A DNA stretch of 64,000 nt from the NCBI RefSeq assembly GCF_020985305.1, contig NZ_CP087588.1, forward strand, positions 2,282,501 to 2,346,500, given 5' to 3'. This document shows, in pieces, positions 21,014-46,185 of this stretch. Origin of the DNA: Croceicoccus sp. Ery15. GTDB taxonomy: Bacteria; Pseudomonadota; Alphaproteobacteria; Sphingomonadales; Sphingomonadaceae. The position numbers were made by a program, and so were the translations under genes. A model generated the notes under the pieces. The model made no database searches and was not told the DNA's origin. It saw only the letters and a program-made list of their open reading frames with translations. The first letter of the stretch is position 1. Each line of letters starts with the position of its first letter.

Positions 21014-21039
21014 CTACGAAGGGCCCGGTTCTACCCCTC
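21014..21039 (-). promoter_or_regulatory. ECF-type promoter for copA
   Basis: On the minus strand: TTTTTGAGGGGTA, 13 nt, CGTAG, then about 32 nt to the copA ATG. It shares the box and spacing with sites at 22367-22392, 22405-22430 and 46160-46185. The TGA of the -35 box is the stop codon of the sigma-factor gene. No experimental data; inferred from the recurrence. Confidence 0.65.
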
Positions 21040-21598
21040 AAAAATTTTCCAGGCGGTCGCGCAATTTTTGCCGGGCACGATAGATGCGGGTCTCGATTGC
21101 CTTTTCCGACACGCCGAGAAGTTCGGCGGCTTCCGCCTGGCTGCGTCCGTCGATACTGACCAATATGAGCGCTTCGCGAAGACGGATCGGAAGACGCTCG
21201 ATTTGCTCCAGGAGCATTCGCAATTCCTGGCGCTGCATCGCGATCTCTTGCGGATCGGGGCTGTCGTCAACAATCGCCAGTGTTTCAGATTCCGCGCCCA
21301 ATCCGAAAAAGCGCGCCGTTTTGCGTTTGCGCAGCCTGTCGCGGCATTTGTTGAGCACGACTGTTGTCAAAAAAGGGCCAACAGGACGGTCCGGGTCGAG
21401 GCGGTGCCGGGCGACCCAGACCGAAGCAAGCCCGTCCTGAACAGCGTCTTCGGCCTGATGCGGAGACGCAAGCATGCGTGTCGCCAAAGCAATAAGCCGC
21501 GCTATATGGGGTTCGACCAGCGTCCCATATGCTGCCTTGCTGCCCCTGCGGGCATCTTCGACCAGGGCGGTCTCGGACCGGCTTTGCGCCTGCGTCAC
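21038..21598 (-). CDS. ECF RNA polymerase sigma factor, CnrH-like
   Basis: 186 residues. Sigma region 2 (LVEPHIARLIALATRMLA; AEDAVQDGLASVWVARHRLD) binds the -10 box and core polymerase; region 4 (LPIRLREALILVSIDGRSQA then EAAELLGVSEKAIETRIYRA) recognises the -35 box. No extra domains. It follows the CnrX-like sensor by 6 nt, in the order anti-sigma, sensor, sigma (Y-X-H as in the cobalt/nickel cnr system). Its stop codon forms part of the copA promoter. It probably drives the four similar promoters in this window. Confidence 0.88.
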   Translation of the reverse strand: MTQAQSRSETALVEDARRGSKAAYGTLVEPHIARLIALATRMLASPHQAEDAVQDGLASVWVARHRLDPDRPVGPFLTTVVLNKCRDRLRKRKTARFFGLGAESETLAIVDDSPDPQEIAMQRQELRMLLEQIERLPIRLREALILVSIDGRSQAEAAELLGVSEKAIETRIYRARQKLRDRLENF

Positions 21599-21604
21599 GG
21601 AAGC

Positions 21605-22039
21605 CTAATTACGCGAATTGCTGGTGAGCGCCTCGGAGACCTTCCGATCGAACAGGCGCTGCTGCTCGGGCTCGAGTGTCTCGCGCATGTCGAAGACGTG
21701 TTGGACCGTGGCTTTCTGCAATTCGCCCATCCGTCCATGCACATCGTCAATCGCCGCGCTCACTTCGGGGCCATATTCGTGCTCGTCGGCCATCGCCCGA
21801 GCGAGCCTCGCATTTGCCGCGCGCAGCGATGACTCAAGTTCAGCACGCTCGACGGCGAAGCGGGCTTCCAGGGTCTCGAGGCGCGCGTTCTGGTCTTCGG
21901 TCAAAACCAGTTCCTCGTGCACGAACTGGTGCAGGCTGCCATTGTCTTCGTGGCTGAGCCAGCGATCAGCCGCGATCGCCCCCAAACATCCCGCGAGCCC
22001 GGCAAGAAGAACGGCAAGCAGGAGGCGTCCGTTCGTCAA
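21605..22039 (-). CDS. CnrX-like membrane-anchored periplasmic metal sensor
   Basis: 144 residues. An N-terminal TM anchor (about 5-24) is followed by a helical periplasmic hairpin of the Metal_resist type. The ligand positions known for Cupriavidus CnrX (His42, His46, Glu63, His119, Met123) correspond at exact spacing to His37, His41, Glu58, His114 and Met118 here. In that family, metal binding releases the sigma factor from the anti-sigma protein. The start follows the anti-sigma stop by 3 nt. The metal sensed here may be copper, judging by the target genes; that is inference. Confidence 0.82.
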   Translation of the reverse strand: MTNGRLLLAVLLAGLAGCLGAIAADRWLSHEDNGSLHQFVHEELVLTEDQNARLETLEARFAVERAELESSLRAANARLARAMADEHEYGPEVSAAIDDVHGRMGELQKATVQHVFDMRETLEPEQQRLFDRKVSEALTSNSRN

Positions 22040-22042
22040 AGT

Positions 22043-22339
22043 CTAGCTCCCGACATGCAGGAGAGCGGCGGGAGAAAGGTGCTCGTTCGACGCAAAATCA
22101 TTATAGGCGGAACTCGCAGTTGAGCCCTGATTGTAGGGCATGATGGTCGTGCCGAAGCCTGCTCCAAGGCCGATGACGAACAGGCTGCAAAAGAGCGCGG
22201 CACGCCGGCGGCGATCGGCAACCTCGCCAAGCTGTCCGGCGCGCTGCCAGACACCATCCATGAAGTCTGACGGGTCATGCACAATATCATGCGCGGCCAG
22301 CTGTTTGAGCGAAGCATCGAGGGAAGGATAATCTGACAT
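22043..22339 (-). CDS. CnrY-like anti-sigma factor (single-span membrane protein)
   Basis: 98 residues from ATG 22339, preceded by GAGG. A cytoplasmic N-terminal half (about 1-41) rich in short helices would bind the sigma factor; then RRRR and one TM helix (about 44-62, ALFCSLFVIGLGAGFGTTI), and a short periplasmic tail. Sequence conservation in this group is low; the call rests on topology and on being first in a Y-X-H order. It is likely to hold the sigma factor inactive until the sensor binds metal. Confidence 0.68.
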   Translation of the reverse strand: MSDYPSLDASLKQLAAHDIVHDPSDFMDGVWQRAGQLGEVADRRRRAALFCSLFVIGLGAGFGTTIMPYNQGSTASSAYNDFASNEHLSPAALLHVGS

Positions 22340-22366
22340 AGGCAACCTCTAACTATTGTAACTCCT

Positions 22367-22392
22367 TTACGCCACAGCCCGCCGAAGCCCTC
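22367..22392 (-). promoter_or_regulatory. ECF-type promoter for the sigma operon
   Basis: Minus strand: TTTTTGAGGGCTT, 13 nt, CGTAA, followed by about 27 nt to the anti-sigma ATG. It differs from the other three sites by a C in the fifth G position. Suggests positive autoregulation. Confidence 0.58.
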
Positions 22393-22404
22393 AAAAAAAT
22401 ATTT

Positions 22405-22430
22405 GAGGGGTATGATATTCTCGCGCGTAT
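22405..22430 (+). promoter_or_regulatory. ECF-type promoter for the DUF2231 operon
   Basis: Plus strand: TATTTGAGGGGTA, 13 nt, CGTAT. The -10 box ends 8 nt before ATG 22439, so the mRNA would be almost leaderless. It is back to back with the sigma-operon promoter; the two -35 regions form CTCAAAAAAATATTTGAG. Confidence 0.62.
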
Positions 22431-22438
22431 CAAGGCAT

Positions 22439-23113
22439 ATGAGCATATTCACCCGCCTTGGCCTCGCCGCCCTCTTCGCAGCCTTTCTGCTTTCGGCACC
22501 CTTGCACGCGCATGAAGGGCATCAGGACAATATGTCCGACGCTGAAATGCTGGCGATGGAGGAGGGTATGGCCATGCCGGACGACGCCCATGCCGGCGAG
22601 CTTGCGCCGCCCGGGGAAGAGATGGACAGGCCGAACGCGCAGCAGTCCATGTCGCCTGAAGACATGATGCAGCAGAAAATCACGGAAAACCGCCTGACCT
22701 CGGCAGAGGACCTTCTGTCGCGCCTTCATCCGGTCGCGGCGCATTTCCCGATTGCGCTTCTCCTCGTCGCCGCACTCGCCGAACTCGCCTTGATGGTGCG
22801 CCCGACCTTGGGGCTTGAGACGACGATCCGGTTTCTCGTAGCCGGCGGCGCGATCGGGGCGGTCGTTGCGGCTTTGCTCGGATGGTTTGCGGGTGGATGG
22901 CGACTGCTGGACCGGTCGGAAAATCTCGCCATTCACCGCTGGAACGGCACGACGATTGCCATATTGAGCCTCCTCGCCTGGTGGGTTGCTGCGCGCGGAA
23001 AGGGGAGAGGCGCGCTGCGCCTGCTTCTGGCGCTGATCGCTGCGGCGCTCATCGTACAAGGCTATTTCGGCGGGGAGATGGTGCACGGGCCCAATCATAT
23101 GGGCATCATGTAG
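22439..23113 (+). CDS. DUF2231 membrane protein with metal-rich periplasmic N-terminus
   Basis: 224 residues from ATG 22439; the earlier ATG at 22403 lies upstream of the promoter and is rejected. A signal-like helix (about 5-22, ending LHAHEGH) precedes an acidic, Met-rich stretch (about 30-80: MSDAEMLAMEEGMAM). The DUF2231 domain follows with four helices, starting LHPVAAHFPIALLL, a motif seen in haem- or copper-linked membrane proteins, and ending in GYFGGEMVHGPNHMG. The function of DUF2231 is unknown. It leads a run with a methyltransferase and DUF411. Confidence 0.8.
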   Translation: MSIFTRLGLAALFAAFLLSAPLHAHEGHQDNMSDAEMLAMEEGMAMPDDAHAGELAPPGEEMDRPNAQQSMSPEDMMQQKITENRLTSAEDLLSRLHPVAAHFPIALLLVAALAELALMVRPTLGLETTIRFLVAGGAIGAVVAALLGWFAGGWRLLDRSENLAIHRWNGTTIAILSLLAWWVAARGKGRGALRLLLALIAAALIVQGYFGGEMVHGPNHMGIM

Positions 23114-23800
23114 GTGGGACGGGTAGCCGCTCCTCAAGGCGACCGAGCCTTCACGCCAGCCCTTGCCAAAGCCTGGCTGACCCCGGTCTATGACCTCACC
23201 AACGCCTTGTTTACGCGTGAGCGGACATGGCGGCGCGCGGTTGTCCGCGCCGCCAATCTTGCGCCCGGCGATCATCTTATCGATGTTGGGTGCGGAACCG
23301 GCACCTTGCTTCGCGATCTCATGATCAGCTGTCCGCAGGCGGGTCTCGCCGGCGTTGAGCCCGATCCGGCAGCACTGGCCATCGCGCGTCGCAAGTTTGG
23401 CGCCGGGGCGGATCTGATCCGTTGGCACAATGGCTTTCTCGATACCCTCGACCTGACCGCGCGATGGCAGCCGAACAAGATCGTCAGCAGCCTCGTCTTT
23501 CATCAGGTTCCGCTGGGTGAAAAGCGGGCAATCCTGGAGCAGATGCACGATCTGCTCCAGCCCGGAGGCATGGTGCTGATTGCCGACTATATGGCTCAGG
23601 ACTCCGCCCTTATGCGCAAGCTTTTCCGCGCCACGGTGCAGCAGCTCGACGGTGTCGAAGACACGCAGCCCAATGCCGACGGTATCCTGGAGCGGCAGCT
23701 TGCCGAAATTTTCACCGACGCCGAAAGGCTTCACGTCTTCCCGACCGCCACCGGAGCGATATCGCTCTGGCACGGCTACAAGAAAGGTCCCCATACATGA
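23114..23800 (+). CDS. SAM-dependent methyltransferase (class I)
   Basis: 228 residues. The start GTG follows the DUF2231 stop with no gap. SAM-binding motif I is HLIDVGCGTGTLL, the acidic end of strand 2 is GVEPDPAALAIARR, and FHQVPLGEKRAILEQMHDLL then PGGMVLIADY are the later strand motifs of the UbiE/Methyltransf_25 type. The conserved C-terminal block RKLFRATVQQLDGVEDTQPN recurs in a second, broken gene at 49924. The substrate is unknown. Its stop overlaps the DUF411 start by ATGA, so it belongs with the metal genes. Confidence 0.85.
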   Translation: MGRVAAPQGDRAFTPALAKAWLTPVYDLTNALFTRERTWRRAVVRAANLAPGDHLIDVGCGTGTLLRDLMISCPQAGLAGVEPDPAALAIARRKFGAGADLIRWHNGFLDTLDLTARWQPNKIVSSLVFHQVPLGEKRAILEQMHDLLQPGGMVLIADYMAQDSALMRKLFRATVQQLDGVEDTQPNADGILERQLAEIFTDAERLHVFPTATGAISLWHGYKKGPHT

Positions 23801-24264
23801 CCCGCACGTTTGCGCGAAAGCGCTTTCGCAACTCGTTCGCCGCAACAGCCCTCCTGGTAATTGCCGCCTGTTCGAACGTTGCCCAGGCGGCCACCTACAC
23901 GATGTATCGCGATCCCGGCTGCGGCTGCTGCCTCAAATGGGCCAACCATTTCGAGAACGGCATGGACGCCGAGGTTGCGACTGTCGACACCACTGACATG
24001 GGTTCGGTGAAAGCCGACAAGGGCGTACCTTCCGATCTGTGGTCGTGCCATACGATGGTGATCGAGGGATATGTCATCGAAGGTCACGTCCCGGCAGAAG
24101 CAATCTCAAAATTGCTGCGCGAGCGCCCGGCAGGCGTTTCCGGACTTGCCGTTCCCGGCATGCCGCTGGGCTCACCTGGCATGGAATACGAGAACCGTGT
24201 GCAACCCTATGACGTCATCGCCTTTGGGCCCGGCGGCCGTACGGTTTTCGCAAGTTACCCCTGA
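23797..24264 (+). CDS. DUF411 periplasmic metal-binding protein
   Basis: 155 residues. A signal sequence with a possible lipobox-like VIAAC (about 22-26) precedes the DUF411 domain: MYRDPGCGCCLKW with three closely spaced Cys, then WSCHTMVIEGYVIEGHVP with Cys and His. These are likely copper ligands; the family is common in copper and silver resistance loci. Length is normal. It is co-translated with the methyltransferase. Confidence 0.87.
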   Translation: MTRTFARKRFRNSFAATALLVIAACSNVAQAATYTMYRDPGCGCCLKWANHFENGMDAEVATVDTTDMGSVKADKGVPSDLWSCHTMVIEGYVIEGHVPAEAISKLLRERPAGVSGLAVPGMPLGSPGMEYENRVQPYDVIAFGPGGRTVFASYP

Positions 24265-24302
24265 ACGGGCAAGAAAACGCCCCCAACTTTTGGAGAATAA
24301 TG

Positions 24303-24581
24303 ATGAAAATGATCCTCACCGTCGCTGGCGCGCTTGCTTTCTCGGCAAGCCCGGTCCTTGCTCAGGAGGCCCCTTCTGAAAAGCCCAAAATGTGCGAGAT
24401 GATGCACGACGGAAAGAAGATGCAGGGCATGATGATGAAGGATAAGGACGGAAAAATGTCATGCCAGATGATGGACCACTCCAAGATGGACCATTCTAAA
24501 ATGGAACATGGCCAGTCCGGCCATGGCGAGAAGAAGGCCGCCGAGGCTGAAAAGCCGCAGACCGAACACAAGCACGACTGA
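24303..24581 (+). CDS. Small secreted Met/His-rich metal-binding protein
   Basis: 92 residues from ATG 24303 (24300 also possible); GGAG lies about 10 nt upstream. A signal peptide (about 1-21, ending LAQ) is followed by a low-complexity chain with many Met, His and Lys: MCEMMHDGKKMQGMMM, MDHSKMDHSKMEHG, ending in HKHD. It contains two Cys. No fold is predicted; it is probably a periplasmic copper sponge. It follows DUF411 by 38 nt and is closed by a strong hairpin. Confidence 0.75.
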   Translation: MKMILTVAGALAFSASPVLAQEAPSEKPKMCEMMHDGKKMQGMMMKDKDGKMSCQMMDHSKMDHSKMEHGQSGHGEKKAAEAEKPQTEHKHD

Positions 24582-24590
24582 CTTGATCTT

Positions 24591-24629
24591 GGCGTCTGGT
24601 GCCGACAACCCCATCCGGGGCCAGACGCC
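24591..24629. terminator. Hairpin between convergent genes
   Basis: GGCGTCTGG pairs with CCAGACGCC (9-bp perfect stem, 21-nt loop). It lies between the Met/His-rich gene and csoR, which converge here. No T-run on the plus strand, so termination strength is uncertain. Confidence 0.5.
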
Positions 24630-24913
24630 TAACGAGCCATGCGTTCGATAAGAGCGAGAAGCTCTGCGACTTTCTCTGATTGATCGGTCTTGTTGTTCGA
24701 GGCGAGCGCCTGTTCGATGCAGTGCTTGGTATGGATGTCGAGTACTTTGGTCCTGGCGGCGCGCGCGGCGGCTTCGAGCGCGAGGATCTGCTGCAGGATA
24801 TCGACGCAATAGCGCTCTTCTTCCATCATTCTCGATATTCCTCGCGCCTGCCCCTCGATCTTGCGCATTCGGGTCAAGACATCACGGAACTTGGGGTTTT
24901 GATCATCGCTCAT
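24629..24913 (-). CDS. csoR: CsoR-family copper-sensing repressor
   Basis: 94 residues from ATG 24913; longer frames run into the operator. The DUF156 four-helix fold is evident (RMRKIEGQARGISRMMEEERYC). The Cu(I) ligands known for Mycobacterium CsoR, Cys36, His61 and Cys65, fall at identical numbers here (RYCVD; DIHTKHC). This Cys-His-Cys set separates it from FrmR and RcnR. Apo-CsoR represses and Cu(I) releases it from DNA. It is divergent from the DUF5676 / AlbA_2 / P-type ATPase genes, which it probably controls. Confidence 0.9.
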   Translation of the reverse strand: MSDDQNPKFRDVLTRMRKIEGQARGISRMMEEERYCVDILQQILALEAAARAARTKVLDIHTKHCIEQALASNNKTDQSEKVAELLALIERMAR

Positions 24914-24983
24914 GCCGTTCTCTCCAGACGCCGAGTTCATTCCTGACTGCTTTTGACACAGTTGCAAAGCAGTTCGCAATACA

Positions 24984-28665: not shown

Positions 28666-30039
28666 ATGGATACCCATTCGGCGCACGAAGACAGCCTGAA
28701 CAAGGGCAGCATCACCCTGCTTGGCGGCGTTGCCATGGGGACCGGAGTCATGATCGGAGCCGGCATTTTTGCGCTCACCGGTCAGATCGCGGAGCTTGCC
28801 GGCCCTCTCTTCCCCCTCTCCTTCGTCGCAGGCGCGCTCATCACCGCGCTCGCATCATACAGCTACATCAAGATGTCGAATGCCTGGCCATCGTCGGGTG
28901 GCATCGCGATGATCCTGCAAAAGGCCTATGGTCCGGGTGTCGTCGCGGCCTCCGCATCAGTGCTGATGGCCATGTCGATGGTTATCAATGAGAGCCTGGT
29001 GGCGCGAACCTTCGCGACCTATGCGCTGCGTCCGTTTGGGCTCGAAGAAAACGCATTGCTGATATCGGGCTTGGCGCTGGGACTCATCGTTTTCGCCTAT
29101 CTGGTCAACGCCGCGGGCAATAGATCGGTAAGCGGGTTTTCGCTCGTTATGTCGGCGATAAAGGTTGGCGGGATAGCGGTGTTCGCAGTTGCGGCGATCT
29201 GGGCCAGCGGACTGTTCGCAGGCGCCTTTACCGAGCCTGCTTCCTTGTCGAACGGCGAAGCATTGCTCGCTTCGGTGGCCTTCTCGATCCTTGCATTCAA
29301 GGGGTTTACAACCATCACCAACAGTGGCGGAGAAATCGTCGATCCGCACAAGAATGTCGGTCGCACAATCATGATCTCGATTGCCGTGTGCATCGTGGTT
29401 TATCTGCTCGTCGCCTTGGCCGTTGGCTCCAGTCTCAGCATCGGCGAGATCGTTCAGGCGCGTGACTATTCCCTGGCCGCGGCAGCGCGCCCCGCATTGG
29501 GAGATCTCGGGTTCTATTTCACCGTAGCGATTGCCATCTCGGCGACTACGTCGGGGGTCATTGCGAGCGTGTTCGCCGTCTCGCGGATGCTGACAATGCT
29601 GACCGAGATGAAGATGATCCCCCACAGCCATTTCGGAATGAAGGGCGGCATCCGTAGCCACATGCTGGTCTATACGGTCGTCATAGCCGGCACACTGGCG
29701 GTCCTGTTCGACCTTTCCCGCATCGCCTCGCTCGGCGCCTTCTTCTACCTTGTCATGGACATGCTCGTCCATTGGGGCGTGTTTCGCAGTCTTCGCAAAA
29801 AGATCGGCGCCCGCGCTTCCGTCCTGCTCACCGCGCTGGCGGCCGACGCCGTTGTGCTCGCCGCATTTACGGCCGCCAAACTCAAGAGCGATCCGGCCGT
29901 GGTTGCCTATGCGGTGATCGGAATCGCGGCCGTGTTCGTGGCGGAATGGATATTTCTGTCCGGCCAGCGCAGGGAGACGAACACAGATTCTATTGAAAAC
30001 AAGGTCGAGAGCGGGAGCGGCGATCACGACCGTCCTTGA
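28666..30039 (+). CDS. APC-superfamily permease
   Basis: 457 residues with about twelve membrane helices. The first carries the APC signature GTGVMIGAGIFALTGQIAEL; helix 6 region has SVAFSILAFKGFTTITNSGG followed by EIVDPHKNVGRT, the usual amino-acid/polyamine permease pattern. The substrate is not readable. It lies between the copper ATPase and the glutaredoxin operon, on the same strand but separated by hairpins on both sides. Homologues sit in metal-resistance islands of sphingomonads as far as I recall, but a direct metal role is unsupported. Confidence 0.83.
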   Translation: MDTHSAHEDSLNKGSITLLGGVAMGTGVMIGAGIFALTGQIAELAGPLFPLSFVAGALITALASYSYIKMSNAWPSSGGIAMILQKAYGPGVVAASASVLMAMSMVINESLVARTFATYALRPFGLEENALLISGLALGLIVFAYLVNAAGNRSVSGFSLVMSAIKVGGIAVFAVAAIWASGLFAGAFTEPASLSNGEALLASVAFSILAFKGFTTITNSGGEIVDPHKNVGRTIMISIAVCIVVYLLVALAVGSSLSIGEIVQARDYSLAAAARPALGDLGFYFTVAIAISATTSGVIASVFAVSRMLTMLTEMKMIPHSHFGMKGGIRSHMLVYTVVIAGTLAVLFDLSRIASLGAFFYLVMDMLVHWGVFRSLRKKIGARASVLLTALAADAVVLAAFTAAKLKSDPAVVAYAVIGIAAVFVAEWIFLSGQRRETNTDSIENKVESGSGDHDRP

Positions 30040-30081
30040 GCGCAACATTGGCTGTTTGGCAGCTCAGATAAATATTTTTGA

Positions 30082-30106
30082 GGCGGCGCCGTAATTTCGC
30101 GCCGCC
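30082..30106 (+). terminator. Hairpin after the APC permease
   Basis: GGCGGCGC pairs with GCGCCGCC across a 9-nt loop, 42 nt after the permease stop. A short T-rich stretch (CTTTATT) follows about 8 nt later. The rest of 30040-30334 holds no gene I can support. Confidence 0.5.
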
Positions 30107-30334
30107 CCGCCCGTCTTTATTCATTCGGCTGCAATCGGAATACCGGAAGTTTGTCCATCTTGTCCGTACCAGGCCGCGCGATCGACCGGCAGAAAGAGAT
30201 TCGCGGGAGGAATGTCGGCGATTGCGACAAACATCGTTTCTCTTTCGAAGAACGATGAAACGAAAACGCGAAACGAACATTGGAATTGAACAAGCAGCCC
30301 CAGGCTGTGCGTGTGAACAAGGGGCTGTAAAGGC

Positions 30335-31078
30335 ATGAAAACTGCGAGTGTTTACCGGATGGTGATGGAGGATCATGTCTGTCCCTATGGCATCAAAACG
30401 GTCGATCTTCTCAAGCGGCAAGGCTTCGAGGTCGACGATCATCACCTGACCAGCAGGGAGGAAACCGACGCGTTCAAGGACAAGCACGACGTCGAGACCA
30501 CGCCGCAGACCTTTATGGAAGGCAAGCGCATTGGCGGCTATGACGATGTCCGCGAGTTCTTCGGCAAAAGCCGCTCGCAGCCCGAGGAAGGCGAAACCAG
30601 CTATCAGCCTGTCATTGCGATTTTCGCGGTCGCGCTGCTGCTCGCGCTCGGGCTGAGCTGGGCGTTTTTTGACGACCTCTTCACCGTTCGGGCCGCGGAG
30701 TGGTTCGTCAGCCTCTCGATGACCTTGCTCGCCGTCCAGAAGCTTCAGGACGTGCGCAGTTTCTCGACCATGTTCCTCAACTACGATCTACTCGCACGGC
30801 GCTGGGTGCCCTATGGCTTCGTCTATCCGTTCGGCGAAGCCGCTGCCGGCATTCTCATGACCGCGGGCGCACTGACCTGGCTTTCTGCCCCGCTGGCATT
30901 ATTCATCGGCACCGTCGGCGCTGTCAGCGTCTTCAAGGCTGTCTACATCGACAAGCGTGAGCTCAAATGCGCTTGCGTCGGAGGTAGCAGCAACGTCCCG
31001 CTCGGTTTCGTCTCGCTGACAGAGAACCTGTTCATGATGGGGATGGGGCTCTGGATGGGTCTCAAGGTCTTTACATGA
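30335..31078 (+). CDS. Glutaredoxin fused to MauE/DoxX-like membrane domain
   Basis: 247 residues. The N-terminal glutaredoxin (about 1-80) has the active site CPYG at residues 16-19 and the cis-proline loop TTPQTFMEGKRIGGYDD. The C-terminal part (about 90-247) has four membrane helices of the MauE/DoxX type and a conserved KCACVGGSS pair of Cys before the last helix. Such fusions may pass thiol redox equivalents across the membrane to periplasmic or secreted metal-binding proteins. It is first in a four-gene set joined by ATGA overlaps. Confidence 0.85.
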   Translation: MKTASVYRMVMEDHVCPYGIKTVDLLKRQGFEVDDHHLTSREETDAFKDKHDVETTPQTFMEGKRIGGYDDVREFFGKSRSQPEEGETSYQPVIAIFAVALLLALGLSWAFFDDLFTVRAAEWFVSLSMTLLAVQKLQDVRSFSTMFLNYDLLARRWVPYGFVYPFGEAAAGILMTAGALTWLSAPLALFIGTVGAVSVFKAVYIDKRELKCACVGGSSNVPLGFVSLTENLFMMGMGLWMGLKVFT

Positions 31079-31488
31079 TCCTCGGTTTAATCCTGGCGAC
31101 CTCGCTGTTCCTGATATCGGTGGGCTCGCACCTCGTCATACTGAATGCGGGCCATACGCTGCTCGAGCAAAACTGCAGCCTTCTGCACAAGCTGGGCATC
31201 GCGCTGCTCGTTCTTTTCTCGCATCTGACCGTAGCGGCGTTCTTCGCCGCCGGCTTCTGGATCGGCGAGGAGCTGGGTCTGGGCGGCTTCCGGCAGGCCG
31301 GCGCGATGACCGCGATGGACTATTTCTATTTTTCTCTGATCAACGTGACGACGCTTGGTTTGGCGGACATTTTCCCAACCGAGCACCTGCGGGTTCTCGC
31401 CGGCGTCGAGGCCCTCACCGGCTTCGCTCTCATCAGCTGCTCGGCGCAGCTATTCTGGACCATGATGCACAAAGGAGAAGAAGCATGA
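31075..31488 (+). CDS. Two-helix ion-channel-like membrane protein
   Basis: 137 residues. Three or four hydrophobic segments; the second half has the layout of Ion_trans_2 pores: an outer helix, a pore loop with NVTTLGLADIFPTEHLRV, and an inner helix (GVEALTGFALISCSAQLFW). Potassium channels have TTLGYGD here; the filter Tyr-Gly is replaced by Leu-Ala, so ion choice may differ. Start and stop both overlap neighbours by 4 nt. Its place with a glutaredoxin fusion and DUF305 is unusual. Confidence 0.75.
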   Translation: MILGLILATSLFLISVGSHLVILNAGHTLLEQNCSLLHKLGIALLVLFSHLTVAAFFAAGFWIGEELGLGGFRQAGAMTAMDYFYFSLINVTTLGLADIFPTEHLRVLAGVEALTGFALISCSAQLFWTMMHKGEEA

Positions 31489-32012
31489 CCGAAAAGACGA
31501 CCCACTCGGACAAGGGAGGGGGCGGCAACTACTGGCGGTTCATGGCCATGGTATCGACTTCGACCGTCATCATGTTCTTCCTGATGTATGCCAACACCTT
31601 CACCATTGACGATGTCTTCTGGAGTGAAACGCGCTTCTGGATGATGTTTGTCATGGGCGCGATGATGATGGTCGTCATGCTCCTCTTCATGTGGGGCATG
31701 TACAAGGACCGGACCAAGAATTTTATCATTCTGGGCGTCGGCGCCTTTGTGTTCGCGCTCGCACTTTGGCTGGTACGCAGCCAGACCACCGTCGACGACA
31801 CCGAATATATGGCAGCGATGATCCCGCACCACTCGATCGCGATCATGACCAGCGAACGGGCGAGCCTGAAAGATCCGCGCGTTCGCGAACTCGCCAAGGC
31901 AATCATCGTCGCCCAGCGCCGCGAGATCGCCGAGATGAAATATCTCATAGACGATATCGAGCAGAACGGTCCTCGGACCGAAGAACGCCTGCCCGAGGAG
32001 ATGCAGCCATGA
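31485..32012 (+). CDS. DUF305 membrane protein
   Basis: 175 residues. Three N-terminal helices (about 17-40, 49-70 and 77-97), rich in Met on the membrane side (FWMMFVMGAMMMVVMLLFMW), are followed by a DUF305 ferritin-like helical domain: EYMAAMIPHHSIAIMTSERA and IIVAQRREIAEMKYLIDDI. The His-His and Met positions are likely copper ligands. The family is common in copper and silver loci. Start overlaps the channel gene, and the stop overlaps the lipoprotein gene. Confidence 0.85.
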   Translation: MTEKTTHSDKGGGGNYWRFMAMVSTSTVIMFFLMYANTFTIDDVFWSETRFWMMFVMGAMMMVVMLLFMWGMYKDRTKNFIILGVGAFVFALALWLVRSQTTVDDTEYMAAMIPHHSIAIMTSERASLKDPRVRELAKAIIVAQRREIAEMKYLIDDIEQNGPRTEERLPEEMQP

Positions 32013-35059: not shown

Positions 35060-36602
35060 ATGCCACAGGCCACACCCGCCATGAACGACGATATCGCAAG
35101 CCCCTTCCGATTCCCAGCGGTCGACCGCAAGAAAGTCACAGCCGCGTTCGACGGTGGTCGGCTCACTTCGGACGGCGGCGTTCTGTTGCTGTCGCAGGCC
35201 GAGCGCGCGATGGGTATCTGCCAGCGGCTTGCGACTTGCATTGCCGATCCGCGCGATCCTGCCCGGGTGATCCATCGCCTCGACGACATCCTGCGTGCCC
35301 GCGTGTTCGCGATCGCCTGCGGCTATGAGGATGCCGACGATCTCGATGCCCTGCGCGACGATCCGGGCTTCCGCCTGGCCCTGGGCAAGCTGCCGGGATC
35401 GGGCGCGGGGCTGGCCAGCCAACCGACGATGAGCCGGTGGGAGAATGCACCGATCACGCGCGAGTTGGCGAAGATGCTGGCCGCGATGATCGACATCTAC
35501 TGCGCCAGCTATCCGGCCCCGCCGGCGGCGGTGACGCTGGATATCGATGATACCTGCGATGTCGTCCATGGCTATCAGCAGTTGTCGTTCTGGAATGGTC
35601 ATCATGGCGAGCGTTGCTTCCTGCCGATCCATGTCTACGACACCGCCACTGGCCGGCCGGTGGCGATGCTGCTGCGCACCGGCAAGACACCGTCTGGTGT
35701 TGAAGCTGCCGGTCACATCCGGCGCCTCGTGCGCCACATCCGCCGGCAATGGCCCGAAACGCACATCACCATCCGCGGCGACGGGCACTATGGGCGGCCC
35801 GAGGTCATGGCCGTCTGCGAGGGTTGCGGCGTCGACTACGTGTTCGGCCTGCCGACCAACGCCGTGCTACGCGCCGATCCCGAAATCGTCGTTGCCGCCG
35901 ATGCCTGTGCGGTCAAACGCGCTCAGCGCCAGTACCCGGTCCTGCGCACCTATGCCGAGACCCGCTACGGGGCCAAAAGCTGGAAGTGCCAGCGCCGCGT
36001 CGTCGCCCGGATCGAGGCCAGTACGATGGGCATGGACATCCGCTATGTCGTCACTTCGCTGACCGAAGGCTCGGCCGAGCACATCTATGATACGCTCTAC
36101 TGCGCGCGCGGTCAGGCCGAAAACCTGATCAAGCTGCACAAGACCCAGCTGGCCAGCGATCGCACCTCGTGCCGCTCTCCCAACGCCAATCAGATGCGCC
36201 TCATCCTGCACACCGCCGCATACTGGCTCCTGTGGCGCATTCAGCAGGAAATCCCCAAGGCAGCCTCGCTCGCGACCGCCGAGTTCGCAACGTTGCGCCT
36301 CAGGCTGCTCAAGGTCGCTGCCCGCGTCATTGAGAGCGCCACTCGCATCCGTGTCGCCTTCGCGTCAGCCTGTCCCGATGCCTCCGTTTTGAAAGCCATC
36401 GCCACCAATCTCAGGCCTGCACCTACTTAGGCGGTGCGGCTGTGCCGCCGAACTCCGAGCTCCATTCCATCAACCTCGAAAAGCCCATTGATCCTGACGC
36501 GGTGAAAAATGCCGTCGAAGACGCTCGCCCGGACTACGCCGCCAACGTCAGATCAAGGCCCATCCACTTCGCTGCTGCGGCCTCATGAATAAACCGGGCT
36601 AG
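34949..36602 (+). mobile_element. IS1380-family element
   Basis: About 1654 bp. The left end CTAGCCCGTCTTATTCA pairs with the reverse complement of the right end, CTAGCCCGGTTTATTCA (15 of 17). The exact outer base is uncertain by 1-2 nt and no clear target duplication is seen. The right end lies 10 nt upstream of the next gene's ATG, so the insertion has replaced that gene's upstream region. Confidence 0.85.
35060..36430 (+). CDS. IS1380-family transposase
   Basis: 456 residues (ATG 35060; ATG 35084 is also possible). DDE transposase with typical blocks: FDGGRLTSDGGVLLLSQAER, LDIDDTCDVVHGYQQLSFWN with the first Asp, ITIRGDGHYGRPEVM with the second, and RGQAENLIKLHKTQLASDRTSC region with Glu (quoted in part: RGQAENLIKLHKTQ). 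Full length and uninterrupted. It mobilises the surrounding element. Confidence 0.92.
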   Translation: MPQATPAMNDDIASPFRFPAVDRKKVTAAFDGGRLTSDGGVLLLSQAERAMGICQRLATCIADPRDPARVIHRLDDILRARVFAIACGYEDADDLDALRDDPGFRLALGKLPGSGAGLASQPTMSRWENAPITRELAKMLAAMIDIYCASYPAPPAAVTLDIDDTCDVVHGYQQLSFWNGHHGERCFLPIHVYDTATGRPVAMLLRTGKTPSGVEAAGHIRRLVRHIRRQWPETHITIRGDGHYGRPEVMAVCEGCGVDYVFGLPTNAVLRADPEIVVAADACAVKRAQRQYPVLRTYAETRYGAKSWKCQRRVVARIEASTMGMDIRYVVTSLTEGSAEHIYDTLYCARGQAENLIKLHKTQLASDRTSCRSPNANQMRLILHTAAYWLLWRIQQEIPKAASLATAEFATLRLRLLKVAARVIESATRIRVAFASACPDASVLKAIATNLRPAPT

Positions 36603-39816: not shown

Positions 39817-42800
39817 TAGCGCGCATAATCGATGCATCGATCGCCAATCGGTTTTTCATCATTCTGGCGGCCATCGCGGTTACGCTCGCTGGCTTCTGGG
39901 CGGTGCGCGCAACGCCTGTCGATGCGATCCCCGATCTGTCTGATGTGCAGGTCGTGGTGCGGTCGAACTATCCTGGGCAAGCTCCGCGCATCGTTGAGGA
40001 TCAGGTCACATACCCGCTTGCAACGACGATGCTCTCGGTGCCGGGCGCGGAAACTGTGCGCGGCTATTCGATGTTCGGCGACAGCTTCGTCTATGTGATC
40101 TTCGAGGATGGGACCGACCTCTACTGGGCGCGCTCGCGCGTGCTTGAATATCTCAACCAGGTGCAAAACGAATTGCCCGACGGAGTGACCAGCTCGCTCG
40201 GGCCGGACGCGACGGGCGTTGGCTGGATTTACGAATATGCGCTGGTTGACCGAACGGGGAACAGCGATCTCGCTGACCTTCGGAGCCTTCAGGACTGGTT
40301 CCTGCGTTTTGAGCTCCAGACTATTCCGGGCATAGCCGAGGTCGCCAGCGTCGGCGGCATGGTCAAGCAGTACCAGGTCGTGCTGGAACCCTACCGGATG
40401 GCTTCGCTTGGCGTCACTTACAGCGATGTCGTGCGTGCCATCCAGGCCTCCAATCAGGAAGCTGGAGGATCGGTTGTCGAAATGGGCGAGGCCGAGTTTA
40501 TGGTCCGCGCATCAGGCTATCTCACGTCTCTCGACGACTTCAGGCAGATTCCGCTGAAATCGGTCGGTAACGGTATCCCCGTCACCTTGTCCGATGTCGC
40601 CACGATCCAGCTTGGGCCCGAAATGAGGCGCGGTATCGCCGAGCTCAATGGGGAAGGCGAGGTCGCGGGAGGTATTGTCGTGCTTAGACAGGGCGAGGAT
40701 GCGCGGGCAACCATCGCGGCTGTCGAAGAGAAGCTCGACGTGCTCCAAGCTAGTCTTCCCGAAGGGGTCGAGATTGTCACGACCTATGATCGTTCGAAGC
40801 TGATCGACGCATCGATCGAAAACCTGACCGGCAAACTCATCGCCGAATTCATCATCGTTGCGATCGTATGCGCGTTATTCCTGTGGCACGTGAGATCGGC
40901 TTTCGTGGCCATCGTCACGCTCCCGCTAGGGGTTCTGGCCGCCTTTATCGTGATGCGTTTTCAGGGAGTCGATGCCAACATCATGTCCTTGGGCGGCATC
41001 GCCATCGCAATCGGCGCGATGGTCGACGCCGCCATCGTTATGATCGAGAACGCCCACAAGCATATCGAGCATTGGGAAGCGGATCATCCCGACGAGGAGA
41101 TGTCCAGCGGCGAGCGCTGGAAGCTGATTGCGGAGGCGTCGAAAGAGGTGGGGCCAGCGCTCTTCTTCAGCCTTCTCATCATCACGCTCTCGTTCCTCCC
41201 GGTTTTTACTTTGCAGGCCCAGGAAGGGCGGCTCTTTTCGCCGCTGGCCTTTACCAAGACCTATGCGATGGCGGCGGCAGCGATACTGTCGGTGACACTG
41301 GTTCCTGTACTCATGGGCTGGCTGATCCGCGGCAAGATACCCAAGGAGGATACCAACCTCCTCAATCGTGTCCTGACCAAGGCCTACCGGCCCGGTCTCG
41401 ATTGGGTGCTCAGCCGACCCAAGACCACTCTCGTCGTGGCAGGCCTCGTATTCCTGACAACGCTGGTCCCGTTCACCCGTCTGGGAGGGGAATTCCTGCC
41501 GCCGCTCGACGAAGGCGATCTCCTCTACATGCCGAGCGCTCTGCCTGGCCTGTCTCCTGGTGAAGCGTCCGCATTGCTTCAGCGGACCGACCGCCTGATC
41601 AAATCCGTGCCCGAAGTCGATACCGTGTTCGGGAAAGCGGGGCGGGCTGATACAGCGACCGACCCTGCGCCGCTCACGATGTTCGAAACAACGATCCGCT
41701 TCAAGCCGCGCGAGGAGTGGCGGCCGGGAATGACGCCAGAGAAGCTCGTCGAGGAGCTTGATCGTGCAGTGCAGGTGCCGGGACTCGCCAATGTCTGGGT
41801 GCCACCGATCCGCAACCGCATCGACATGCTCGCGACCGGTATCAAGAGCCCGATCGGCGTGAAAGTATCCGGCGAGGACCTTGCTGAGATCGAGCGCGTG
41901 GCGTTGCAGGTCGAGAACGTTGCCAAGCAGGTTCCCGGAGTCAGTTCCGCTTTGGCAGAGCGTCTTTCGGGAGGCCGCTATGTCGACGTGGACATCGACC
42001 GGGTCGCTGCGGCGCGTTTCGGATTGAACATCGCCGATGTTCAGCAGATTGTGTCAGGCGCGATCGGCGGGGCAAATATCGGCAGAACGGTCGAAGGACT
42101 GGCGCGATATCCCATCAATGGGCGCTATCCGCGCGAGATCCGCGACAGCCTCGCAGAACTGCGCGCGCTGCCTTTGCTAACCCCCTCTGGCCAGCAAATC
42201 ACGCTTGGGACCGTAGCGCAGGTGAGCATCAGCGACGGTCCGCCGATGCTCAAGAATGAGCAAGGCCGTCTCATCAGCGTGGTCTATGTCGATACGCGCG
42301 GGCGCGATCTTACTTCGGTCGTAAGTGATCTTCAGGCGGCAGTGTCAGACGGCGTCGATCTGCCTGCCGGTGTGAGCATCTCTTACGCGGGCCAGTTTGA
42401 ATATCTCACCCGCGCCAATGAGCGGTTGCAGGTCGTCGTTCCCGCGACGCTCGGCATCATTTTCGTTTTGCTCTATCTGATCTTCCGCCGCTTCGACGAA
42501 GCGCTACTTGTTATGGGCACGCTGCCCTTCGCCCTGACCGGCGGCTTCTGGCTGCTTTATCTGATGGGCTACAACCAGTCTGTTGCGACATCGGTGGGTT
42601 TTATTGCGCTTGCCGGTGTGTCTGCCGAGTTCGGCGTCATCATGCTGATCTACCTCAAGTCTGCGCTGGCCCGGCGCAGTGGTGCCCTCGATGCGGACGG
42701 TGTGGGCGAAGCCATCAGGGAGGGCGCACTCCTACGCGTCCGGCCCAAGGCGATGACCGTGGCCGTTATTCTGGCCGGTCTCTTCCCGATCCTGATTGGA

Positions 42801-42980
42801 ACCGGCGCAGGTTCGGAAGTCATGAGCCGCATCGCCGCACCGATGGTGGGCGGCATGATCACCGCCCCGCTGCTTTCCATGTTCGTTATCCCCGCCGCAT
42901 ATTTGTTGATGCGGCGCCCCCGGCCCGAACGGCCAACCCAACCCCAAGGAGAAGAAGAATGCGAACCACAACCCTCATAA
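39813..42980 (+). CDS. cusA: CusA-like heavy-metal RND efflux pump
   Basis: 1055 residues, full length for HME-RND pumps. Twelve membrane helices and two large periplasmic loops. Signatures include [20 protein letters not shown], the helix-4 proton-relay stretch [20 protein letters not shown] with its acidic residues, [20 protein letters not shown], and [18 protein letters not shown]. It exports Cu(I)/Ag(I) from periplasm or cytoplasm by proton antiport. Start overlaps cusB; the cusF gene begins inside its last 22 nt. Confidence 0.95.
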
Positions 42981-43342
42981 CCCTATTGGCCGCGCCGCTG
43001 GCGCTGGCGGCCTGCGATTCTGGCCAGGACACTGCCGAGATGGAGGACATGCCGATGGCTGAAGATGCAATGATGATGGACGGCCAGGATATGCCAATGA
43101 CGGACACTGGCAACGCAATGCAGTCCGCGAGTGCGCAAGGCACCGTCACCGCCATCGACGCCGAAGCGGGTACGATCACCGTCGACCACGGCCCGGTCCC
43201 CGCAATCGAATGGCCGGCGATGACCATGGCGTTCGAAGCCGATGAGCAACTGCGCAGCGAAGTAAGCGTCGGTGAGGGCATTGCCTTTGAATTTCGTACT
43301 GGTTCTGAAGGCAGTGTGATCACGTCGATCACGAAGGAATAA
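42959..43342 (+). CDS. cusF: CusF-like periplasmic copper chaperone, lipoprotein
   Basis: 127 residues. The signal ends in LALAAC (lipobox, Cys19). A Met/Asp-rich linker follows ([20 protein letters not shown]), then the CusF domain with [17 protein letters not shown]: the His, Trp and two Met Cu(I) ligands are present. CusF hands copper to CusB/CusA. It starts 22 nt before the cusA stop. The lipid anchor differs from the soluble E. coli protein. A second CusF domain sits on CusB. Confidence 0.9.
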
Positions 43343-43398
43343 ATCGGTCGGGTGGTGCCAGGCAAATCTGGCGCCGCCCATCGCGAAACAGGAGGAGC

Positions 43399-44928
43399 AT
43401 GATCCGGACACCCCGCATCACCCATGCATTATCCGTAGACCGCCGAGGACTGATCAAAAGCGCAGGCTTTGCTGCTGCAGGCTTTGCCGCGTTCCCGCTT
43501 GCAGGATGCAAAGCGCAAGACGCATCGATGCTGGACAGCACTCCAGGGTCCAATCCGCTCGCTATACCGCCCTTGCAGAGTGGCGAGATAGAGCAGGGCA
43601 CGCGGGTTTTCCGCCTGTCTTTGACACCAGGCCAGAAGGAATTCGTCCCCGGTGTTGCTTCGTCCACCATCGGCATCGACGCACCCTATCTGGGACCGAC
43701 GCTGGAAATGCGCCGGGGCGAGCGGGTGCAGTTCCATATCGACAACAATCTGGCCGAAGGCGCTACGGTCCATTGGCATGGTTTCGAACTTCCTGCCGCA
43801 GCCGATGGCGGACCGCATCAGTTGATCCGTCCCGGTGAACGCTGGAGCCCCTCTTTCGAAGTTCGCCAGCGGGCCTCGCTCTACTGGTATCATTCGCACT
43901 TGGAGCGCAAAGCCGGGCCGCAGGTCTATGCCGGGCTCGCCGCGCCGATCTATGTTCGCGATGACGAGGAAGAGCGCCTCGACTTGCCGAGCGACTATGG
44001 CGTCGACGACATTCCGCTGATCGTGCAGGACCGCGTGATCGATGGGTTCGGCCGGTTGGTGTACCCGCTGAGCATGCACACGCGGATGATGGGCATGCGC
44101 GGGAACCGGATATTCGTCAACGGCACTGAGAATGCCGTGTTCGACGCACAGACAGGCCAATTACGGCTGCGCATCCTCAACGGATCGAACGCCCGCTTCT
44201 ACGATTTCTCGCTCGAAGGTGATCGTTCGATGCAACTGATCGCGAGCGATGGCGGCTTGCTCGATCGTCCGCACATCGTCCGCTCGGTCAGGCTCGCACC
44301 GGGGGAGCGCGCGCAGGTAATTATCGATCTCTCGGAAGGACGCCCGCTTCGCCTTCTTGCCAGCAGTCCCGAAATCGCCATGGGCATGATGGGCGGACGC
44401 GGAATGATGGGTCGCGGCAATAGCGACGATGCTTCCGGAGACGTGTTTCAAATCCTCGATATCAGGCCGGCAAGTTCGGCCCAGCGCATCAGGGTGCCGA
44501 CACAACTGGCATCGCTTGCGCCAACCGACCCGTCGTCAGCCGTCCGAACCCGGCGTTTCGTTCTCGACATGGGCATGATGGGCGGCGGAATGTCCATTAA
44601 CGGTGCTGCGATGGACATGAATGTGATCAACGAACGTGTGCCGGTCGGCCAATGGGAAATCTGGGAGATCGCCAACCCTTCGATGATGACCCATCCGTTT
44701 CATATCCATAATGTCCAGTTTCGTGTGATCGACCGCGATGGCCGAGCGCCCCCACCACTGGAAACCGGTTTGAAGGATACCGTTATCGTCAACCCGCGCG
44801 AGCAGGTTCGCCTTCTCCTGCGTTTTGAAGAACACACTGACCCAGGGCTGCCCTACATGTATCACTGCCACATTCTCGAACACGAGGATGCTGGCATGAT
44901 GGGGCAGTTCGTAGTCGTGCAGAGCTAG
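43399..44928 (+). CDS. Multicopper oxidase, CueO/laccase type
   Basis: 509 residues. The Tat-type signal (DRRGLIKSAGFAAAGFAAF) ends in a lipobox-like PLAGC (about 29-33). Copper ligands: VHWHGFELP, YWYHSHLE, MTHPFHIHNVQF and YHCHILEHEDAGMM, so type 1, 2 and 3 sites are complete. A Met-rich loop (MGMMGGRGMMGRG, about 330-342) resembles the Cu(I) substrate site of CueO. It oxidises Cu(I) in the periplasm. It follows cusF by 56 nt and is distinct from the CopA-type oxidase at 19143. Confidence 0.92.
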   Translation: MIRTPRITHALSVDRRGLIKSAGFAAAGFAAFPLAGCKAQDASMLDSTPGSNPLAIPPLQSGEIEQGTRVFRLSLTPGQKEFVPGVASSTIGIDAPYLGPTLEMRRGERVQFHIDNNLAEGATVHWHGFELPAAADGGPHQLIRPGERWSPSFEVRQRASLYWYHSHLERKAGPQVYAGLAAPIYVRDDEEERLDLPSDYGVDDIPLIVQDRVIDGFGRLVYPLSMHTRMMGMRGNRIFVNGTENAVFDAQTGQLRLRILNGSNARFYDFSLEGDRSMQLIASDGGLLDRPHIVRSVRLAPGERAQVIIDLSEGRPLRLLASSPEIAMGMMGGRGMMGRGNSDDASGDVFQILDIRPASSAQRIRVPTQLASLAPTDPSSAVRTRRFVLDMGMMGGGMSINGAAMDMNVINERVPVGQWEIWEIANPSMMTHPFHIHNVQFRVIDRDGRAPPPLETGLKDTVIVNPREQVRLLLRFEEHTDPGLPYMYHCHILEHEDAGMMGQFVVVQS

Positions 44929-44940
44929 GAAGGACAGGCG

Positions 44941-45159
44941 ATGAGCAAGGGCGAGAGCGTGATCGAGGGTACTGCGATCAACCCGGTATGCGGCATGAGC
45001 GTCGCGATCGAAGGAGCCGAGCACATCGCGACGCGTGAGGGCGCGAAACATTATTTCTGTTCGTCGCGCTGCCACGACCAGTTCATCAGCGATCCCGAGC
45101 TATATCTGTCGGGCGCGCATCCAGACGCCGTGGAGGATGTGCCCGAAGGCACAAACTAG
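44941..45159 (+). CDS. YHS-domain metal-binding protein
   Basis: 72 residues. The YHS/TRASH-like core is NPVCGMSVAIEGAEH, HYFCSSRCHDQFISDPELYL, with three Cys that would bind a metal ion. No signal peptide, so it is cytoplasmic. It starts 12 nt after the multicopper oxidase with GGAAGGA upstream, so it is likely last in the cus transcript. Small YHS proteins are thought to carry or buffer copper. Confidence 0.85.
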   Translation: MSKGESVIEGTAINPVCGMSVAIEGAEHIATREGAKHYFCSSRCHDQFISDPELYLSGAHPDAVEDVPEGTN

Positions 45160-45192
45160 ACCTGTCCCACGCATCCTGAACGCGTTACTAAG

Positions 45193-45699
45193 TCAATCAG
45201 GCTCGACGTGCGCGAAGCGGACGAGAAGGATGGTTAGCGCGGGCACGATCGTCCACATCGCGATTGGTATCAGCGCCAGGCCCGTCACTGGCTCGTGCGG
45301 CATCAACTCGCTGTAGCGCCAGCTCAGGAAACTGTTTGCCGGAAGCGATGTGGCGATCATTTCGACGGCGATTGCGACGACGAGCCCGAAGCCGAAATAG
45401 ATCGCATAGGGTAGTTTGTCTGACTGCCAGGGCCACGCATGCCCGCCGCGCAGTGCAGCAAGGCTATAAGCTGTGAGCAGGATCACGCCATCGCCCAGGC
45501 TTGCGATGCCGCAGCGAATGGTCTGCTCATAAGTCTCGAGATTGCCCGGCTTGAAAAACGGCATCTGGAAGATCTCCCAGACGAACGCGATCAGGCTCCC
45601 GCAAAAAAAGATCAGCCAATGGGTTCTGGTCATTCTGCAGGCACGCCCGAATAGTCTGCGCCAGCAAATAGCAAGCGGCCGGATTTCCATTTCCTGCAT
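45193..45699 (-). CDS. Integral membrane protein of unknown function
   Basis: 168 residues (ATG 45699; ATG 45633 would remove 22 residues and start MTRTHW just before the first helix). Four hydrophobic helices (about 26-46, 66-86, 97-117 and 138-160). No metal-ligand cluster or enzyme motif. Convergent with the YHS gene and 27 nt after the gene at 45727 on the same strand, with which it may be co-transcribed. I do not recognise a named family. Confidence 0.6.
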   Translation of the reverse strand: MQEMEIRPLAICWRRLFGRACRMTRTHWLIFFCGSLIAFVWEIFQMPFFKPGNLETYEQTIRCGIASLGDGVILLTAYSLAALRGGHAWPWQSDKLPYAIYFGFGLVVAIAVEMIATSLPANSFLSWRYSELMPHEPVTGLALIPIAMWTIVPALTILLVRFAHVEPD

Positions 45700-45726
45700 A
45701 GCGCCTTCGCTGCCCCAAAGCCTGGA

Positions 45727-46014
45727 TCAGTCATGGTTTTCGCGGCCCTCCGCCTTGGCCATGCGAGCAGCGCGTTCGAGAAACTTCCGCATGTCACCTG
45801 CTGCCAGTTCGGTAAGCGGATGCCGGCTCGCCTCGGGGCGCGGTTCGATCATGTCCGCACGCTTTCTGATCTGGTCGATCTGTTCATCGCTGGCCCCGGA
45901 CAAAAGGCCAAGAACTATGTTCTCGAGAGTAATGAGGCGAATGCGCATTTGCACCAGCTCGGCATGATCGGGCTCCGGAATATCCCAGCTGCCGTCCTCA
46001 TTGACCGTGCTCAT
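45727..46014 (-). CDS. Small acidic protein, paralogue A of an unknown pair
   Basis: 95 residues, no signal peptide, helical. The core QMRIRLITLENIVLGLLSGA followed by ASDEQIDQIRKRADMI and PRPEASRHPLT matches the protein at 47703-48041 almost line for line. No known domain recognised. It lies just upstream of the membrane protein gene at 45193. The heptad-like LITLENIVLGLL suggests a short coiled coil or dimer helix. Function unknown. Confidence 0.65.
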   Translation of the reverse strand: MSTVNEDGSWDIPEPDHAELVQMRIRLITLENIVLGLLSGASDEQIDQIRKRADMIEPRPEASRHPLTELAAGDMRKFLERAARMAKAEGRENHD

Positions 46015-46159
46015 GACTGCTTCTCCGACGGCTCTATTGGCACCATGATATTCCCCATTCGACTTTATCGACCTCTCTCAAAAAGGGTGGCCGAAAAACA
46101 GCATCGCTGCAACCGGCCGTGCTACGGCCTACCCGCCCCACCGCTTCTGCGAATTGTTT

Positions 46160-46185
46160 GAGGGGAAGGGCCGTCTGCTGCGTAT
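46160..46185 (+). promoter_or_regulatory. ECF-type promoter for the secreted protein at 46239
   Basis: TTTGAGGGGAA, 13 nt, CGTAT; the -10 box ends 53 nt before ATG 46239. Same boxes and spacing as the three sites around the CnrYXH-like genes 24 kb away. Confidence 0.6.

Follow-up and report, generated by a model that had tools for sequence, protein, structure and literature searches.

The stretch of DNA analyzed here, 64,000 nucleotides of Croceicoccus sp. Ery15 (contig NZ_CP087588.1, positions 2,282,501 to 2,346,500; hereafter the window), carries a copper island in which four copies of a two-part box, GAGGG and CGTA separated by 16 nucleotides, precede genes of the island, including the operon of a sigma factor of the extracytoplasmic function (ECF) type. 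Their sequence and placement make it very probable that these boxes are ECF promoters belonging to the adjacent anti-sigma/sensor/sigma system, which is similar to the nickel/cobalt system CnrYXH, and they are very probably of the CnrH type, with a spacer one base shorter than that of the cnr promoters (16 versus 17). We consider likely the whole explanation, which combines CnrH-type ECF promoters, a metal-released sigma factor, a regulon of copper genes, and three overlapping paralogous systems.

The pattern TTTGAGGGNWW-N13-CGTA was searched for on both strands of the window, and the result was compared with 100 dinucleotide shuffles. There are exactly four matches in the 64 kb and none in the shuffles (mean 0.00), which bears out the fourfold pattern described in an earlier, sequence-only reading of this DNA. 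The directions of the boxes toward their genes were also given correctly there, while its intervals begin at GAGGG and extend one base beyond CGTA, an immaterial shift. Predicted transcription starts were placed 12 nt downstream of the C in CGTA, on the model of the cnrY and cnrC promoters (cnrYp and cnrCp), and the leaders were counted by hand. The four pattern matches are the following:

21015..21042, minus strand: putative ECF promoter box of copA; predicted start 21006; overlaps the 3' end of the sigma factor gene
22368..22395, minus strand: putative ECF promoter box of the anti-sigma/sensor/sigma operon (autoregulation); predicted start 22359
22402..22429, plus strand: putative ECF promoter box of the DUF2231/methyltransferase/DUF411 genes; predicted start 22438; back to back with the anti-sigma box
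46157..46184, plus strand: putative ECF promoter box of the gene for a Met/His-rich secreted protein; predicted start 46193

The predicted leaders measure 25 nt for copA, 20 nt for the anti-sigma gene, 1 nt for the DUF2231 gene, and 46 nt for the Met/His protein gene. The DUF2231 message would be nearly leaderless, with its predicted start one base before the ATG (window 22438-22441). A fifth GAGGG-N16-CGTA, absent from the list of the sequence-only reading, lies at window 43274-43298 (+) inside a cusF-like gene, about 100 nt ahead of a second multicopper oxidase gene (43399-44928); it may be a further promoter or a chance match.

The strongest evidence for the boxes as promoters of the CnrH sigma type is their match to the cnr promoters of pMOL28. 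Ahead of cnrY the plasmid reads AAGGGGGAGTCCTTCGCGCAGCCGTATAA, and ahead of cnrC it reads GAGGGGAAGCATCGACCTGGTCCGTATAG; AGGG-N17-CGTA is present at both, as AAGGG...CGTATA at cnrY and as GAGGG...CGTATA at cnrC. Transcription of cnrY has been mapped to a start 24 nt ahead of the gene, and that of cnrC to one 25 nt ahead (PMC9045368), and the C of CGTA lies 12 nt ahead of the mapped start in both cases. The same source describes cnrYp and cnrCp as non-RpoD and CnrH-dependent. At the ncc locus, the spacer is 17 nt on the nccC side and 15 nt on the nccY side. The sequence-only reading had seen no match between the boxes and the cnr promoters as published; this was a mistake, because the same AGGG...CGTA core is present at the mapped cnrY and cnrC starts.

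The two middle boxes of the window stand back to back and make CCCTCAAA-N6-TTTGAGGG, and an inverted repeat from two divergent boxes is present both in the window island and in a second copper island of the genome, island A. This arrangement would suit a different explanation, in which a DNA-binding copper regulator has GAGGG as its operator and occupies the palindrome as a dimer. However, copA and the Met/His protein gene are served by single boxes without a palindrome, CGTA follows at a fixed distance of 16 (17) nt, and the boxes agree with the mapped CnrH promoters. An operator in place of a promoter is therefore very improbable, and we discarded it on the grounds of the fixed spacing, the direction of the boxes, and the agreement with the mapped cnr starts.

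The proteins encoded next to the boxes point to the same family as the promoters. The operon has the order small protein, Metal_resist sensor, and ECF sigma factor, as in CnrYXH of pMOL28. The best solved-structure match of the window sigma factor is CnrH (4cxf, E 9.9e-25), and a sensor profile built from the three paralogues of the genome matches NccX/CnrX at about 1e-25; the earlier description of the sigma factor as CnrYXH-like is thus upheld. In a sigma tree of 62 rows with a midpoint root, 56 sensor-linked sigma factors, including CnrH and NccH, are split from six sensor-less ones with 100/100 support. The four rows of the nickel type group together at 100/100, and their nesting within the remaining sensor-linked rows is moderately supported (81/82 and 91/85). 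The published ECF group to which CnrH belongs is presumably ECF20. The genes of the window island that concern the system are listed below:

21038..21598, minus strand: ECF sigma factor, CnrH type; Pfam sigma regions 2 and 4, best PDB match CnrH 4cxf
21605..22039, minus strand: CnrX-type periplasmic metal sensor (Metal_resist); PF13801 5e-16, start codon uncertain
22043..22339, minus strand: small anti-sigma candidate in the CnrY position, from position and operon only
19143..20981, minus strand: copA, copper resistance multicopper oxidase; TIGR01480, 717.9 bits versus a cut-off of 478.95
18028..19143, minus strand: copB; PF05275 1.3e-85
22439..23113, plus strand: DUF2231 membrane protein; PF09990
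23114..23800, plus strand: methyltransferase, from a Pfam search
23797..24264, plus strand: DUF411 protein; PF04214
46239..46628, plus strand: Met/His-rich secreted protein, with no Pfam family

The boxes are not limited to the window. TTTGAGGG-N16-CGTA has eight sites in the 3,633,189-bp genome and none for the reversed control, with an expectation of 0.34 derived from the window base composition. All eight are confined to three paralogous cop islands (the window island, island A, and island C), each of which has its own anti-sigma/sensor/sigma operon plus copA and copB. Relative to the window proteins, the paralogues are 55 and 60% identical for the sigma factor, 58 and 73% for the sensor, and 45 and 57% for the anti-sigma protein. 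When either A or G is accepted before AGGG, 12 boxes precede genes, three in island A, four in the window, and five in island C. Of these boxes, three serve copA, three the anti-sigma operon, and two DUF2231; the methyltransferase, DUF411, the Met/His protein, and an amino-acid-type permease have one each. The spacer sequences differ among the boxes of this one genome. The earlier proposal of four promoters for one sigma factor was incomplete: its four boxes stand, but they form part of a set of 12 across three islands, with three sigma paralogues and one promoter code. The "NWW" of its motif was overfitted, since the other islands read GAGGGGTGC, GAGGGTTCG, and GAGGGAATG.

With one mismatch allowed, the genome has 14 sites versus 4 reversed, so that by number alone the six additional sites carry no significance; three of them are located in island C, ahead of fitting genes. 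Sites 1632167 and 2195418 adjoin or sit inside unrelated open reading frames (ORFs) and look like chance. Another one-mismatch site, TCTGAGGGG...CGTATT at G000:C1:2256797-2256824 (L156 1501-1528), 26 kb to the left of the window, precedes another sigma-like gene with a predicted leader of 27 nt; it is common to genome G003 only, and the paralogues have no box. We keep it as a candidate for a possible sigma cascade.

The conservation of the boxes in relatives was analyzed in 80 named loci, which together contain 276 GAGGG-N16-CGT sites versus 14 reversed. For placement and downstream genes, 73 of them (L064-L136) were counted, with the exclusion of L137, though boxes are present there, and of L138-L143, which have distant sigma factors. 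The copA-side box, behind the sigma gene, is found in 71 of the 73 loci, the anti-sigma-side box in 68 of the 71 loci with enough sequence, and the divergent-side box in 69 of 71. Among the loci that miss the copA-side box, L074 has TGAGGG without CGTA at the spacing and L102 has an altered G-run; on the anti-sigma side, L120 and L121 read GAGTG and L097 has no recognizable box. The boxes therefore recur before the orthologous operons, and their absence there had been named by the sequence-only reading as one way in which its regulon could fail; the scan of the genome (8 versus 0 reversed) and of related copper islands gives the same picture.

A total of 333 boxes was collected from 76 sources (the window, L009, L010, and the 73 loci), and 328 of them have a downstream ORF. 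In 322 of these 328 cases, the box leads into one of seven protein families: copA/multicopper oxidase (75), anti-sigma (71), permease (53), DUF2231 (47), methyltransferase (46), Met/His protein (23, window included), and DUF411 (7). The analysis of flank preferences fixed AGGG and CGT beforehand, so only the other columns are informative; outside this core there is a preference for T-G before AGGG, T two bases after AGGG, G before CGT, and A after CGT, and these preferences persist in the 120 boxes below 70% identity. In 74 of 87 divergent pairs, the GAGGG elements are separated by 9-15 nt.

A less circular test of the spacing consisted of counting AGGG-Nd-CGTA, with d from 6 to 30, in loci for which the sensor was the only search criterion. 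Fourteen loci of this kind have 30 sites at d=16, 9 at d=17, and 0-4 at the other spacings. The 15 plasmid and relative loci yield 32 at 16, 9 at 17, and at most 5 elsewhere, with 7 at 16 in the reversed control. The 73 named loci have 325 sites at d=16, with up to 55 at other spacings and up to 73 in the control, which are high because near copies repeat chance sites. We also chose 60 further loci, mostly lower-scoring, from the places found in a survey of 296 Sphingomonadales genomes; this set partly overlaps the named one (for example, L237 and L083 coincide) and has 169 sites at d=16, at most 24 elsewhere, and at most 36 in the control. A box is located upstream of the sensor, on its strand, in 50 of these 60 loci.

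Given these counts, it is hardly conceivable that the boxes represent chance similarity or the recent duplication of one sequence. Such an origin would agree with the near-identical islands of many relatives, but eight sites were found where 0.34 were expected, the spacers vary within one genome, boxes also adjoin sensor-linked sigma factors only 33-44% identical to that of the window, and the 120 boxes of lower identity keep their flank preferences. We rejected it on the counts versus expectation, the varied spacers, and the persistence beside distant sigma factors. Many islands are indeed near copies, and the window sigma factor is found at 99% identity in Qipengyuania citrea, Pacificimonas aurantium, and Tsuneonella suprasediminis. 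The loci of these three genera (L064, L065, and L066) also have identical box cores, and for this reason their sequences suggest a recent transfer of the island among them.

The presence of the box was also compared with that of the sigma factor in a sample of 40 genomes, in which a close sigma factor was defined as one with at least 230 bits. The exact box occurs in 11 of the 12 genomes with a close sigma factor versus 4 of the 28 without; the twelfth genome with one, G006, has AGTGAGGGG boxes instead. Exact-box matches in this sample number 46 versus 10 reversed. Sensor-less relatives of the sigma factor were only partly usable as a clean negative control, as L061 has 0 sites and L054, L055, and L056 have one each. 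In L054 and L055 this is a single AAGGG-N16-CGTA upstream of the sigma match, at 1354(+) and 1428(+), respectively, and in L056 it is a GAGGG-N17-CGTA inside the sigma match, on the opposite strand. The promoter code may reach into this sensor-less sister group.

The CnrX-type sensor is present in at least 101 of 296 sampled Sphingomonadales genomes, at least 5 of 240 genomes of the class sample, at least 12 of 299 of the phylum sample, and at least 1 of 369 genomes of the class of G516, namely G516 itself. These values are lower bounds, from scoring part of the first-look candidates, and the source genome is counted in the Sphingomonadales, class, and phylum samples.

Regarding the metal, the genes that adjoin the system are informative. 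Copper genes of the Cop set adjoin it in 17 of 19 genome loci; of the two exceptions, G516 has 17-nt spacers and homologues of cnrC, cnrB, and RND genes, and G036 shows none of the probes. In the 60 further loci, Cop-set genes adjoin it in 51, and of the other nine, seven have a DUF411 or copper-ATPase-like gene and two have none of the probes. Among plasmid records, of which 20 of the 116 with a match were examined, 15 annotated alphaproteobacterial loci have a sensor gene, and 14 of these also have annotated cop genes; the fifteenth, from Caulobacter henricii, has genes for a copper-binding protein, CueR, and RND efflux. The three Cupriavidus loci have nickel-type efflux genes. According to this gene context, the system in Alphaproteobacteria mostly faces copper genes and not nickel efflux. 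In the window, the boxes lead to copper genes and not to nickel/cobalt efflux genes, which makes a nickel Cnr system less probable without affecting the proposal that the system works like CnrYXH. Of the "metal regulon" announced by the sequence-only reading, the regulon is very probable and can be narrowed to copper by gene context, from which copper is also the probable inducing metal.

The sensors add a second line of evidence. We take H42, H46, E63, and H119 to be ligand positions of CnrX, and they are kept in 114, 114, 114, and 116 of 116 sensors, respectively. M123, which is kept in 115, is named as a CnrX ligand (PMC7689651). H106 and M109 are present in 112 of 112 non-nickel-type sensors, with E and A in the four nickel-type ones, and also in 59 of the 60 further sensors. 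These two residues are a candidate metal-tuning pair. As a strict copper mark they are not established, since their distribution also follows ancestry and none of the copper probes is present in two of the 60 loci.

With the same promoters and sigma factor, the true inducer could be nickel or cobalt, or several metals, with the copper genes responding too. The five CnrX residues, kept in 114-116 of the 116 sensors, are compatible with this, and nickel raised the RNA of copA, copB, and copC in Sphingobium sp. ba1 (PMC5557971); because of this increase, nickel is kept as a possible inducer. The copper genes nearby (in 17 of 19 and in 51 of 60 loci) and the H106/M109 pair, lacking in the four nickel-type sensors, argue in the other direction, and we consider an inducer of this kind unlikely, although it deserves more weight than an operator or chance.

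Not all observations favor the boxes as promoters of a copper-responsive, CnrYXH-like system. The window-type sensors have the same ligand residues as a nickel/cobalt sensor. The anti-sigma candidate has no Pfam or PDB match, and its identity to CnrY in the alignment is 10-20% (20% for the window protein). The cnrY start (record position 53286) is labeled RpoD in a table (PMC11647585), a source in which the signal of this start also climbs about tenfold with metals. The island and box counts are not independent, because many islands are near copies. Ten of the 60 further loci are without a box before the sensor operon, and in two plasmid loci of Caulobacterales the boxes precede other genes, with none ahead of the anti-sigma gene. 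Lastly, the exact box is present in four genomes without a close sigma factor. In one of these, G036, a distant sigma factor adjoins the box. A divergent box pair, at 1528(-) and 1561(+), was seen in L023 of G020, a genome in which no close sigma factor was found.

With these points considered, we propose the following mechanism for the CnrYXH-like system. GAGGG and CGTA would be the -35 and -10 elements through which CnrH-type ECF sigma factors recognize these promoters. In the resting state, the small membrane anti-sigma protein would sequester the sigma factor; excess metal, most likely copper, would be bound by the periplasmic CnrX-type sensor, and the sigma factor would be freed. The polymerase would then start at the copA-copB, DUF2231/methyltransferase/DUF411, and Met/His-rich protein genes, and would also fire the promoter of the operon itself, closing a feedback loop. 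Because the three systems share the promoter code, their regulons, with 12 promoters, probably overlap. Two polymerases could hardly sit together on -35 elements as close as those of the divergent pair, and therefore transcription of the sensor operon and of the effector operon may compete.

The closest known systems are CnrYXH of pMOL28 and NccYXH of Cupriavidus, which respond to nickel/cobalt. They share with the window system the gene order of anti-sigma, sensor, and sigma factor, the homology of sigma factor and sensor, the ligand positions of the sensor, and the AGGG...CGTA promoter before the operon and before effector genes. They differ in their targets, which are cnrCBA for CnrYXH and copA/copB, DUF2231, methyltransferase, and DUF411 genes for the window type, and in the spacer, which is 16 nt in the window type versus 17 in cnr (15 at nccY). 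H106/M109 in the sensors, three paralogues in one genome, and back-to-back -35 elements further distinguish the window type. CorE of Myxococcus xanthus is likewise an ECF sigma factor tied to copper, but it senses the metal itself, through a CxC linker motif and a Cys-rich C-terminal domain (PMC8999054), whereas the window sigma factor has 186 amino acids, one Cys, no C-terminal extension, and a separate sensor. SigAb/AabA/AabB of Acinetobacter is also an ECF sigma factor with anti-sigma proteins encoded in its operon; it is copper-responsive, and AabA has been compared with CnrY (PMC12153292). According to the same source, its -35 is GTCAAC and its -10 is CGTT, unlike the GAGGG/CGTA of the window boxes, its anti-sigma genes are downstream, and copAB belongs only to its indirect regulon. 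SigF/NrsF of Caulobacter crescentus is another alphaproteobacterial ECF regulon induced by copper, whose listed 11-gene copper core is without pcoAB (PMC8224329); its targets differ from those of the window type.

No sphingomonad copper regulon under a CnrYXH-type system is described in the literature searched, the coverage of which was partial, and the motif itself may be in print. What we would regard as new is how widely the family is used with copper, the promoter code that is shared but differs in its spacer, and the signature of the sensors. A nickel-resistance-like switch appears to have been put to copper use in many sphingomonads. If so, the release of a sigma factor would be the means by which many of these organisms control copAB and copCD, which is a testable answer, and the textbook nickel system would become one branch of a wider family. 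H106 and M109 would be the residues that distinguish copper-linked from nickel-type sensors, and the promoter code could be used to find regulon members by sequence. One conjecture is that this also gives a reason for the nickel-raised cop genes in the Sphingobium transcriptome (PMC5557971).

A broader and more tentative reading, to which we give somewhat less than an even chance, joins these elements. CnrYXH systems would be mainly, and perhaps ancestrally, copper-sensing systems of sphingomonads and related bacteria, and CnrX would be a derived sensor that lost H106/M109 and kept the primary site, a change that would have contributed to re-tuning the metal. One AGGG-N16/17-CGTA code would serve both branches, and, at the conserved back-to-back -35 elements, transcription of the sensor operon and of the effector operon would compete for one polymerase patch.

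Some other features of the copper island can be mentioned. Window 28666-32012 resembles L010 11504-14666, as both contain a run of permease, MauE-like, ion channel, and DUF305 genes; the permease gene of this run has a box in island C, and none was seen ahead of the window copy. A DDE transposase gene (PF13701) is located within the island at window 35060-36430, and a HipA-like gene flanks the island on the left at window 14954-16282.

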